53,207 nucleotides of DNA from Candidatus Endomicrobium procryptotermitis (GTDB lineage Bacteria; Elusimicrobiota; Endomicrobiia; Endomicrobiales; Endomicrobiaceae): assembly GCA_031279415.1 (NCBI GenBank), contig JAITIP010000013.1, positions 1-53,207 of the forward strand, given 5' to 3'. Shown here one piece after another: positions 4,430-45,658 of the stretch. The notes beneath the pieces are model-generated. The model was not told where the DNA came from, made no database searches, and saw nothing but the letters and a program-made list of their open reading frames with translations. The position numbers and the translations under genes are program-made. The number at the start of each line of letters is the position of its first letter. Position 1 is the stretch's first letter.

Positions 4430-5226
4430 TATTGGATAAAATCGTTGCGGCAGCAAAAGTAAGAATTGAAAAGTCAAAAGAAAAAAAATCTCTTGAAGAG
4501 GCAAGAAAAGAGGCCATCTCGGTTTCAAAAGATGGGAATTTCTCTTTTGAAAAAGCGCTTAAAAAAGAAGAAATAAGCTTTATATGCGAAATAAAAAAAG
4601 CGTCTCCGTCAAAAGGAATTATTTCACATGATTTTAGATATTTGGAAACGGCAAAAGAGTATGAAGCAGCAGGTGCGGATGCAGTTTCTGTTATTACCGA
4701 ACCTGACTTTTTTATGGGTTGCGATAGGTATCTTACGGAAATTAAAAACACTGTAAGAATACCGGTATTAAAAAAAGATTTCATAATAGACGTTTACCAG
4801 ATTTTTGAAGCAAAAAATACCGGCGCCGACGCAGTACTTTTGATATGCACAATACTTAGTTTTGAAGATTTAAAAGAGTTCATGGAAACTGCTCATGCTT
4901 TGGGATTATCATGTCTTGTTGAAACGCATGATGAAAAAGAAGTTGAAATGGCGCTTAAAGCCGGTGCAAAAATAATAGGCGTTAACAACAGAAATCTTAA
5001 AACTTTCGAAGTGGATATAAATAACAGCGCAAAATTGAGAAAACTTGTATCGCAGGACAAAATATTCGTTTCAGAAAGTGGAATAAGAACAAAAGAAGAT
5101 ATAGATGCTCTGCGTTTGCACAAAATTGATGCTGTTTTGATAGGCGAAGAACTTATGAAAAGTACAAACGTAAAGCAAAGGCTTAAAGAATTGAAAAGCA
5201 TATGGAGGAAAAATGACGAAAATTAA
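4426..5226 (+). CDS. trpC: Indole-3-glycerol-phosphate synthase
   Basis: It closes the pyrrole ring, turning carboxyphenylamino-deoxyribulose phosphate into indole-glycerol phosphate. The 266-residue (beta/alpha)8 barrel shows EIKKASPSKG at 55-64 with the catalytic lysines, then VLKKDFI, GADAVLLI, LVETHDEKE, GVNNRNLKTF and VSESGI at the ends of successive strands. It is a separate enzyme, not the enterobacterial TrpC-TrpF fusion. It starts inside the stop codon of trpD and overlaps trpF by 14 bp. Confidence 0.97.
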   Translation: MILDKIVAAAKVRIEKSKEKKSLEEARKEAISVSKDGNFSFEKALKKEEISFICEIKKASPSKGIISHDFRYLETAKEYEAAGADAVSVITEPDFFMGCDRYLTEIKNTVRIPVLKKDFIIDVYQIFEAKNTGADAVLLICTILSFEDLKEFMETAHALGLSCLVETHDEKEVEMALKAGAKIIGVNNRNLKTFEVDINNSAKLRKLVSQDKIFVSESGIRTKEDIDALRLHKIDAVLIGEELMKSTNVKQRLKELKSIWRKNDEN

Positions 5227-43525: not shown

Positions 43526-43603
43526 TGGGGTGGACGACGAGACTTGAACTCGCAGCCTTCGGCTCCACAAACCGACGCTCTAACCAGTTGAGCTACGCCC
43601 ACC
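43526..43603 (-). tRNA. tRNA-His (GTG)
   Basis: The minus strand folds as a standard cloverleaf: acceptor GTGGGCG with CGTCCAC, D-arm with AGCTCAACTGGTTAGAGC, anticodon loop TTGTGGA giving GTG, and T-arm with GAGTTCAAGTCTC. The extra 5' G and the discriminator C form the G-1:C73 pair specific to tRNA-His. The CCA end is encoded. Confidence 0.97.
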
Positions 43604-43658
43604 ATTTAAGAAAGAAATTAACGACTTGAAAAAAGAATTAAATATCTAAAGCTAAAAA

Positions 43659-43732
43659 CGTCTCCGGCGTGAGTTGAACACGCAACCTACTGCTTAGAAG
43701 GCAGTTGCTCTATCCAATTGAGCTACGGAGAC
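43659..43732 (-). tRNA. tRNA-Arg (TCT)
   Basis: The minus strand gives acceptor GTCTCCG with CGGAGAC, D-arm AGCTCAATTGGATAGAGC, anticodon stem ACTGC/GCAGT with loop CTTCTAA (anticodon TCT), and T-arm with GTTCAACTC. The discriminator is G. CCA is not encoded, unlike the neighbouring tRNA-His. The two lie 55 bp apart in the same transcription unit, tRNA-Arg first. Confidence 0.96.
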
Positions 43733-43757
43733 ACAAAGCCAATAGATAAGGTTTGAA

Positions 43758-43963: not shown

Positions 43964-44452
43964 GTGAATTGTTCTATAAAAAATAGTAATATAGTTAAGT
44001 GTATAAGATGTGTTGGAAGAACGAAGGGGAATAGGACAAAAAGCCTGAGGACTGCCTCGTTTTTCACTCAGCTTGGCATATCTATCTCTTGCGGAACAAT
44101 TTTTAAGGCCGCAATTTATTCCAAAGAAGGAAACTATAAAATAATCCCGTCTAGTTTTTTAACTTGCATAAGATTAAAGCCTGAACTTAATATATCAGCC
44201 AGCTATGTAGCCGCTTATTTAAGACATAAAGAAAATAGTATAATATCAAAAGGAAAAACGATAAATAAATCAAGCGAAAAAAAGTCCAAAATACAATTAA
44301 AACTTTCAGATATTTACAATATAGAAAGCCCAATTGCTTCAATCAAAATTCAAAAAGAAATTGACAAGTTATCTTCAGAAGCAACGTCATTGCTAAAACA
44401 AAGTATTGAGAAGACAAAAAGAATAGAAAATATTATTAAGAAAAATAGTTGA
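43964..44452 (+). pseudogene. Partial type I restriction specificity subunit (HsdS-like)
   Basis: The last 110 of 162 residues look like the second half of an HsdS target-recognition unit. They show a KIIPSSFLTCIRLKPE core, then ASYVAAYL, then a short strand block ending in SPIASIKIQKEI, then the long conserved helix (SSEATSLLKQSIEKTKRI). A complete HsdS has two such units and about 400 residues. The first 50 residues (NCSIKNSNIVKCIRCVGRTK) do not look like the family and may come from a frameshifted or rearranged start. A GTG start with AAGGAGG upstream exists, so a short product could still be made. Between the tRNA promoter and this gene (43774-43881) another frame reads protein-like but has no start. 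Confidence 0.6.
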
Positions 44453-44467
44453 GAGGCTATCATTATC

Positions 44468-44609
44468 GTGGATAAAATCAAAGAATTTATTAACGACAAT
44501 ATATGGCGGGATAGATAAAAAAGCTTGGATTAAAAATGGTATTTTTGTCGATATAAATACATTAGGAAGCTTCTACGGATTAGAAGAAGATTTGGAGAAA
44601 AACAAATGA
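44468..44609 (+). pseudogene. Frameshifted small gene before the methylase
   Basis: A GTG-started frame reads MDKIKEFINDNI and stops soon after. Shifting by one base near the TATGGCGGG at about 44502 continues it as YGGIDKKAWIKNGIFVDIN and on to EEDLEKNK, ending at the TGA that overlaps the methylase start (ATGA). The simplest reading is one small gene broken by a single-base indel. I do not recognise it; its place suggests it belonged to the same restriction-modification unit. Confidence 0.45.
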
Positions 44610-45583
44610 TAAAATCACCCCTAAATTACACGGGAAATAAGTCAAGGTTTTTAGTCCAACTCCTTCCGCGTTTTCCACAAAAGGTAAATAGATTTGTAGA
44701 TATGTGCTGCGGTGGCGCAAGTGTAGGCTTAAATGTAAATGCCAAATATGTCATTTGCTTTGATAATAATAAAAAGGTTATAGATTTATTGCAAACTCTT
44801 AGCTTCCTATCAGAAAAAACTATTGTTGATAAAGTAGAAGAATTTATAAATGAATTTAATTTATCAGATAATTATAATAAAGGTTATGCTATATATAGAA
44901 AATACATACGGGATAATAACGGATTAAAGCAATATAATGCCGAAGGATATGCAAAATTACGCAGTTTTTATAATGATAAAGGACTTAACACCAAAAGGGA
45001 CAATGATGTTTGTCTATTTACTCTTTTAGTTTTTTGTTTCAATAATGACCTTCGTTTTAATTCTGCTGGAAAATTCAATATGCCTGTTGGGAAAACAGAT
45101 TTTAACGAGAGTATTCGCAAGAAGTTAAACTCTTTTAAGCACGGGACAAGCGAGAAATCAATAAATTTTATTCAAGGCGATTTCAAAATCCTTAAAGAAT
45201 TTGGCTTACGCCGAGACATTTTTGTTTATATAGCCCCGCCTTATCTAATAACAAATGCAGTTTATAATGAAAGTGGCTCAAAATGGGACAAAATTAAGGA
45301 AGTGGAGTTATTATCAGTTTTATCATATTTAGACGATAAGGGAATAAGGTTTGCGCTTTCAAATGTGTTAAGAAAAGGCGAGAAAGAAAATACTATTTTA
45401 TCTTCGTGGGTTAAGAAAAATAAATTCAATACTCATTACATAAATTACCATTACCGCTCTTCAAGTTATAATAAAAAGGACAGGGCAACGCCAGAAGAGG
45501 AAGTATTAATTACAAATTATAATGTCTTAACTATCTTAGCACCGCAGGAGGTCTTTAATTCTACTGTTGTATTAGCAACTTGA
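44606..45583 (+). CDS. Dam-like D12-class adenine-N6 DNA methyltransferase, probably inactive
   Basis: A 325-residue protein of the D12 class (Dam, DpnII methylase type). SPLNYTGNKSR (4-14) is the AdoMet/DNA motif X, and FVDMCCGGASVGLN (30-43) is motif I. The catalytic motif IV, normally DPPY, reads APPY at 210-213 (VYIAPPYLI), through a GCC codon at 45233-45235. The Asp binds the target adenine and is essential in characterised enzymes, so I expect loss of activity. The rest of the frame is intact, which suggests recent decay or a DNA-binding role only. It starts in the overlapping stop of the frameshifted small gene. No restriction enzyme is nearby. Confidence 0.85.
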   Translation: MIKSPLNYTGNKSRFLVQLLPRFPQKVNRFVDMCCGGASVGLNVNAKYVICFDNNKKVIDLLQTLSFLSEKTIVDKVEEFINEFNLSDNYNKGYAIYRKYIRDNNGLKQYNAEGYAKLRSFYNDKGLNTKRDNDVCLFTLLVFCFNNDLRFNSAGKFNMPVGKTDFNESIRKKLNSFKHGTSEKSINFIQGDFKILKEFGLRRDIFVYIAPPYLITNAVYNESGSKWDKIKEVELLSVLSYLDDKGIRFALSNVLRKGEKENTILSSWVKKNKFNTHYINYHYRSSSYNKKDRATPEEEVLITNYNVLTILAPQEVFNSTVVLAT

Positions 45584-45590
45584 ATCCGCC

Positions 45591-45619
45591 TTGTATATTT
45601 TTATATTAATTTGTATAAT
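45591..45619 (+). promoter_or_regulatory. Promoter of the rimP-nusA-infB operon
   Basis: TTGTAT (45591-45596), a 17-bp spacer and a perfect TATAAT (45614-45619). The predicted start near 45626 lies a few bases before a leader hairpin and about 55 bp before the rimP start. Confidence 0.85.
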
Positions 45620-45629
45620 ATCTTAAATT

Positions 45630-45658
45630 AAGGCGGCTAAATGCCGTCTTTTATTTTT
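45630..45658 (+). terminator. Terminator-like hairpin in the rimP leader
   Basis: AAGGCGGC (45630-45637) pairs with GCCGTCTT (45643-45650) around TAAAT and is followed by TTATTTTT. It lies at the very 5' end of the transcript from the promoter above. It could end transcripts arriving from the methylase gene or attenuate the operon. CCGCCTT at 45586-45592, upstream of the start, could pair with AAGGCGG and prevent the hairpin in read-through transcripts only. Confidence 0.65.

Follow-up and report, generated by a model that had tools for sequence, protein, structure and literature searches.

What kind of restriction-modification (R-M) locus left the gene remnants at positions 43964-45583 of the analysed DNA of Candidatus Endomicrobium procryptotermitis (a stretch of 53,207 nucleotides, here called the window), and how recently was it lost? 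The affected span lies between a tRNA-His/tRNA-Arg pair and the rimP-nusA-infB operon and contains two open frames in the ORF list (43964-44452 and 44606-45583). The initial annotation of this DNA described a decaying R-M island, a description supported by the nuclease stub, the change in methylase motif IV and the codon models presented below. Taken together, the analysis indicated that the span very probably represents the remains of one collapsed type II R-M cassette, in which the first methylase (M1) is catalytically lost and in which the damage is recent. The following features were assigned in and beside the span:

43526-43602, minus strand: tRNA-His (gtg), found by ARAGORN; neighbour, outside the cassette
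43658-43733, minus strand: tRNA-Arg (tct), found by ARAGORN; neighbour, outside the cassette
44083-44452, plus strand: surviving 3' part of a single-domain HsdS-like gene, 5' part lost (blastn to G046 and G156)
44465-44494, plus strand: first ~10 codons of an HNH nuclease gene (blastn of 44465-44490 to G046)
44481-44606, plus strand: final 42 codons of the same nuclease gene, in a different frame (E 8.9e-17, 83%)
44606-45526, plus strand: M1, Dam-like D12 methylase, homologous across 307 aa
45233-45235, plus strand: codon 210 of M1, GCC (Ala), giving APPY for DPPY in motif IV (by alignment; aligned to Asp171 of T4 Dam, 1yfj)
45527-45583, plus strand: read-through tail of M1, 18 residues and a stop, where the second methylase (M2) starts in relatives; no M2 match
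45591-45640, plus strand: conserved leader 5' of rimP, at which the cassette ends on its right side; G001 and G004 share this sequence block

Related cassettes were located by a search with M1 in 99 genomes of relatives, that of the host included (matches in 25 at E 0.001, examined where locus sequence was available), and by a search with the nuclease in 294 genomes of the phylum, 17 of which had some match and which yielded two more copies of the cassette. In these relatives, the genes formed a block in the order HNH nuclease (~460 aa), M1 and M2, in some copies preceded by a half-HsdS gene. The order HNH-M1-M2 was observed in G046, G028, G055 and G026, as well as in G141, which belongs to another family, and the HNH domain of the relatives' nuclease was recognised by PF01844 (E 3.6e-7). 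The nuclease frame of G141 was open, and a simple HNH-core pattern that fitted the other copies failed on it. In G046, G028 and G055, the nuclease and both methylases were all open, so that the intact island, for which a search in relatives had been suggested, was found.

The frame that starts at 43964 had been read as a half HsdS. Its HsdS-like homology was confirmed by blastn matches to G046 (44083-44437, 77%, E 1.6e-74) and G156 (44087-44490, E 7.5e-77), but the remnant is smaller than half a gene and lacks the front. Homology to the 196-aa single-domain S protein starts near 44083 and, therefore, roughly 40 codons at the start of the ORF open from 43964 are unrelated to it. The ORF as a whole (43964-44452) showed no Pfam or NCBIfam match at E 0.001, and its best PADLOC match had an E value of 3e-4. 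The S proteins of G046 and G156 have a single domain each. Like half-HsdS genes, that of G046 matched PF01420 (E 6.1e-10, residues 2-169); unlike a type I HsdS, it has one domain and no HsdM or HsdR partner in the 9 kb of G046 that surround it, and the window keeps the 3' part of the gene only. HsdM and HsdR were also absent from the ORFs that adjoin the window locus, and the type I combination of two target-recognition domains with adjoining HsdM/HsdR was not encountered. No relation at E 0.01 was detected between the S remnant and other S genes of its own genome (8 of 11 Methylase_S stretches compared).

The HsdS-like gene lies directly 5' of the nuclease in G046 and G156, where half-S, HNH and M1 follow one another in the same order and with close spacing. 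One inherited cassette therefore explains the mixture of gene types, and the repeated gain and loss that the initial annotation invoked for the mixed type I and type II parts is not needed. An accumulation, at a tRNA hotspot, of remnants from distinct systems of the two types is, accordingly, quite unlikely. By family, HsdS-like and D12 genes do represent different system types, and the lack of a match to the HsdS-like gene beside the cassettes of G028, G026 and the more distant G141 is consistent with an optional neighbour that joined once, as are genes of another defence system between S remnant and nuclease in G055. Against such an accumulation stand the recurrence of the same three genes in G046 and G156, the position of the cassette 5' of the tRNA, with no integrase in the surrounding ORF list, and the different locations of the cassettes in relatives, of which that in G028 sits beside recA, unlike the window copy.

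In G055, the HsdS-like gene is internally deleted. Genes for a CBASS-type cyclase and a Cap15 effector were identified between this S-like remnant and the HNH nuclease (locus L031, 3785-5292), and so the front of this cassette has received an insertion of defence genes.

ARAGORN confirmed the two tRNA genes that had been noted beside the remnants. These genes look incidental to the cassette, since the cassette lies at the 5' side of tRNA-Arg and since the same pair has different neighbours, and no cassette, in G004 and G005. Along with the lack of an integrase, these observations left tRNA-guided insertion unsupported. To the right of M1, rimP was recognised by Pfam. Ten loci around nusA in relatives, nine of which include rimP (absent from L067), contained none of S, HNH, M1 and M2. 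Moreover, the tRNA pair was upstream of rimP in none of the ten and the neighbours varied; the region has therefore been rearranged, and the ten loci offered no clean empty site 5' of rimP.

Between the S remnant and M1, the initial annotation had placed a small gene broken by one indel. This is in fact the stub of the ~460-aa HNH nuclease gene around a deletion of ~1.2 kb, as measured relative to G046. Its 5' end (44465-44490) matched G046 (92%, E 1.4e-5, blastn), G055 and G028, although the match of the N-terminal peptide is by itself weak (E 0.44). At the 3' end, the stub differs from G055 at four amino acids in 42 codons, three of them within the first six codons, which sit at the deletion junction; the last 36 codons thus contain a single difference. 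An imperfect short AAAGA-TTT-TTA stretch is common to both ends at the junction, and the deletion appears to resemble those that occur between short repeats. No second copy of the nuclease was found elsewhere in the host genome, and of the nuclease gene that belongs to a type II R-M system the window holds the stub alone.

In relatives, M2 is a 337-aa D12 methylase (PF02086, E 1.1e-34) whose gene overlaps the end of M1. Tblastn searches for an M2 remnant in the window gave noise-level matches only. The pair of methylases of a type IIS-like system is thus present in relatives and not in the window, where the original stop of M1 is missing and the frame continues through other DNA for 18 residues, as far as the edge of the rimP leader. 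Neither the absence of M2 nor the read-through tail had been mentioned in the initial annotation.

Cassette copies within the family represented different stages of erosion. In G026, a stop interrupts the nuclease at codon 75 of its aligned part and both methylases are open, while in G156 the nuclease is internally deleted and both methylases are likewise open. G056 combines a nuclease frameshift with a deletion that extends from residue 65 of M1 to residue 55 of M2, whereas the window copy has a broken nuclease, no M2 and an M1 with APPY. The nuclease was broken in 4/7 Endomicrobiaceae copies, and 0/7 paired a broken methylase with an intact nuclease, a count that leaves aside G019 (whose nuclease-like frame, at 40% identity, is truncated by the contig end) and G141 (outside the family). 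Given the risk to a genome left unprotected, the nuclease is predicted to be lost first, and the seven copies are an illustration of this self-protection, not a test. That erosion stages of one cassette are visible within one family is of modest importance.

The deletion in G056 (locus L131, 3446-4544) fuses M1 at residue ~65 to M2 at residue ~55, creating an accidental methylase chimera with an extra stop in the M2 part. In G046 (locus L029), a 150-bp direct repeat (1155-1304 and 4909-5058, 96% identical), which corresponds to the 3' part of the S-like gene, flanks HNH-M1-M2. Recombination between these repeats could provide a route for removal of the cassette; deletion or restoration of an R-M system via 80-bp flanking repeats is described in PMC7494987.

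Consistent with a type IIS-like organisation, intact relatives share with HpyAII, as described in PMC7494987, an HNH nuclease and two separate methylases. Unlike HpyAII, whose M2 is given there as an N4-cytosine methylase, both methylases of this cassette are of the D12 class, and the window copy lacks nuclease and M2. According to PMC4081073, type IIS nucleases usually come with a separate methylase activity for each strand, and the two methylases are sometimes joined as in FokI. PADLOC profile PDLC03292 (722 residues), which presumably stands for M.FokI-like proteins, was matched by M2 over 78-406 and by M1 over 417-717, so the M1/M2 pair would seem to resemble a fused two-domain methylase. 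The pair differs from the FokI type in that M1 and M2 are separate, overlapping genes in the order M1-M2 and in that the nuclease has an HNH domain. Overall, the locus is an ordinary R-M cassette, recently collapsed, that had been rightly suspected and partly misread. No literature on this cassette was found by title or start of abstract (Endomicrobium R-M, R-M decay, HNH type IIS), in a collection that covers subscription journals thinly.

M1 itself had been described as a Dam-like methylase in which DPPY is changed to APPY, and both elements were confirmed. M1 matched PF02086 (E 3.1e-21, 76.7 bits, cut-off 22) and TIGR00571 dam (117.7 bits, cut-off 114.85); its frame is 100% open and 79-83% identical to those of four relatives (G046, G028, G055 and G026). 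The motif IV codon is GCC in the window and GAC or GAT in five close relatives. In the alignment to relatives that had been proposed as a check, the window alone read APPY (residues 210-213) and 20/20 homologues, comprising six cassette copies and 14 more distant sequences, read DPPY; L025 (G019), which is cut by a contig end and lacks motif IV, was excluded. D210A was the sole departure of the window at 39 near-invariant columns, defined as those with a residue in at least 16 of 20 rows and at most one dissenter. Across the 158 columns invariant in six cassette copies, the window M1 departed at 6, as compared with 1 to 3 of 153-155 columns for each of the other five near copies when treated alike. 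The window M1 is thus somewhat more changed than the near copies, and its branch is also long.

By sequence, M1 shares a Dam-like fold and the same motif positions with T4 Dam (1yfj; E 6e-35) and M.DpnII (2dpm; E 6.9e-7). Both of these enzymes keep DPPY, unlike the window M1, which moreover derives from a two-methylase cassette. The T4 Dam residue aligned with position 210 is Asp171, and the same exchange in EcoDam (D181A) serves as a catalytically inactive control in PMC9895073. By analogy with these other Dam enzymes, D210A should abolish methylation by M1, which would be a D12/Dam member by descent and is not expected to function as one. GATC would not be a natural first guess for the site of M1, because the gene comes from a two-methylase cassette and, in type IIS systems, each strand has its own methylase.

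The intact cassette, as seen in relatives, combines an HNH nuclease with two D12 adenine-type methylases, and some copies add a single-domain HsdS-like gene in front. If the analogy with type IIS systems holds, the nuclease would act on an asymmetric site and cut DNA that is unmodified there, and M1 and M2 would each shield one strand of this site. In the window copy, the internal deletion of ~1.2 kb removed the nuclease, M2 was wholly lost, the HsdS-like gene lost its front and M1 acquired D210A in the catalytic DPPY motif, with the expected loss of methylation; this damage is very probably recent relative to the divergence from relatives. Judged from its gene content, neither restriction nor modification by the window locus is expected.

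Codon models were used to place a rough upper bound on the age of the death of the window copy. Pairwise omega values were 0.055-0.077 between the window M1 and five relatives, and 0.043-0.116 among those five. In a branch model (lnL -3299.48), omega was 0.052 on the window branch and 0.059 elsewhere; a single omega gave lnL -3299.58 and a neutral window branch -3341.86, and a second tree topology agreed with this result. A two-phase model, in which a neutral phase was placed at the end of the window branch, gave a best neutral fraction of 0 for M1, with lnL drops of 1.22 at 1% and 2.44 at 2%. For the S remnant (115 codons) and the 42-codon HNH stub the best neutral fraction was also 0, with lnL drops at 5% of 2.14 and 2.03, respectively. 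At most about 2% of the M1 window branch was therefore neutral, with bounds near 5% for the S remnant and for the nuclease stub, branch proportions being rough because synonymous sites are almost saturated (pS 0.62-0.68 against five near relatives) and because support for the M1 tree is weak (28-73 for DNA, 11-40 for protein). These results indicated either that the death of M1 is recent or that its frame is still under selection, as an inactive M1 under selection would give the same signal. The proposal that the catalytic change may be recent was thus strengthened by the open frame, the omega of ~0.05 and the ~2% neutral bound.

Continued selection would apply if M1 were catalytically dead and kept as a DNA-binding protein (for example, as a repressor or as a shield of old sites), so that D210A would represent exaptation rather than decay. 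The open frame, the similarity of omega on the window branch and the rest of the tree and the single change at 39 near-invariant columns are all compatible with this explanation. However, the HNH stub, by now non-coding, is equally unworn, so that recency covers all three parts, and M1 has lost its stop and its downstream partner. Since the S remnant and the HNH stub are as undamaged as M1, selection on M1 is unneeded and its retention as a binding protein is very unlikely. The combined proposition that a just-inactivated M1 is selected as a binder of the former restriction site and that the single-domain HsdS-like protein is a working type II specificity part would be a long shot; if true, the locus would be a snapshot of a defence cassette becoming a regulator. 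It is, finally, highly improbable that APPY is an assembly or consensus error and that M1 is a solitary methylase, still active, that has outlasted its nuclease: one base separates GCC from a DPPY codon, the codon at 45233-45235 was read from the consensus of a 46-contig assembly, the rest of M1 is conserved and G156 provides an example of a deleted nuclease with both methylases open, but such an error would have had to strike the most critical codon of an independently wrecked locus from which the partner M2 is missing.

A recent catalytic change in the methylase had been presented as expected in a symbiont losing phage pressure, for which no support was found. The host genome (2.01 Mb, scored 100% complete) contained 11 PF01420 (Methylase_S), 10 PF02384 (N6_Mtase) and 11 PF02086 (D12; 10 over cut-off) stretches, which were counted by domain and include pieces of one gene. 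Its size is in the range of the large-genome genera (2.11 Mbp) and not of the established endosymbiont genus (1.13 Mbp on average), as given in PMC11257099. The same source describes R-M systems as abundant in E. trichonymphae but as rare across the family, where their distribution is random, a description that is hard to reconcile with the large number of R-M-type stretches in this genome. Ruin of an R-M system need not mean lower phage pressure.

A phage or plasmid origin of the cassette was also considered and rejected. M1 matched 772 phage records (best identity 43.5%), so that kin of M1 are common in phages, but the cassette itself was not found there. Searches with the HNH nuclease found nothing in 50,697 phage records or in viral contigs and gave five weak matches in plasmids.

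Several other observations were made in the host genome (G000). Two half-HsdS frames stand in tandem after an HsdM-like gene at C37:65202-66168 (L116), where blastn detected no internal repeat and thus no sign of an invertible pair, and two others face each other on opposite strands at C37:114584-115498 (L118). Another D12 protein of this genome (L005, C24:6720-7547) reads DTPY (VYIDTPYIS) where DPPY is usual. Most of the window is filled by a single open frame of 10,971 aa on the plus strand (10028-42943) with many membrane-like stretches and one stretch that looks SecA-like.
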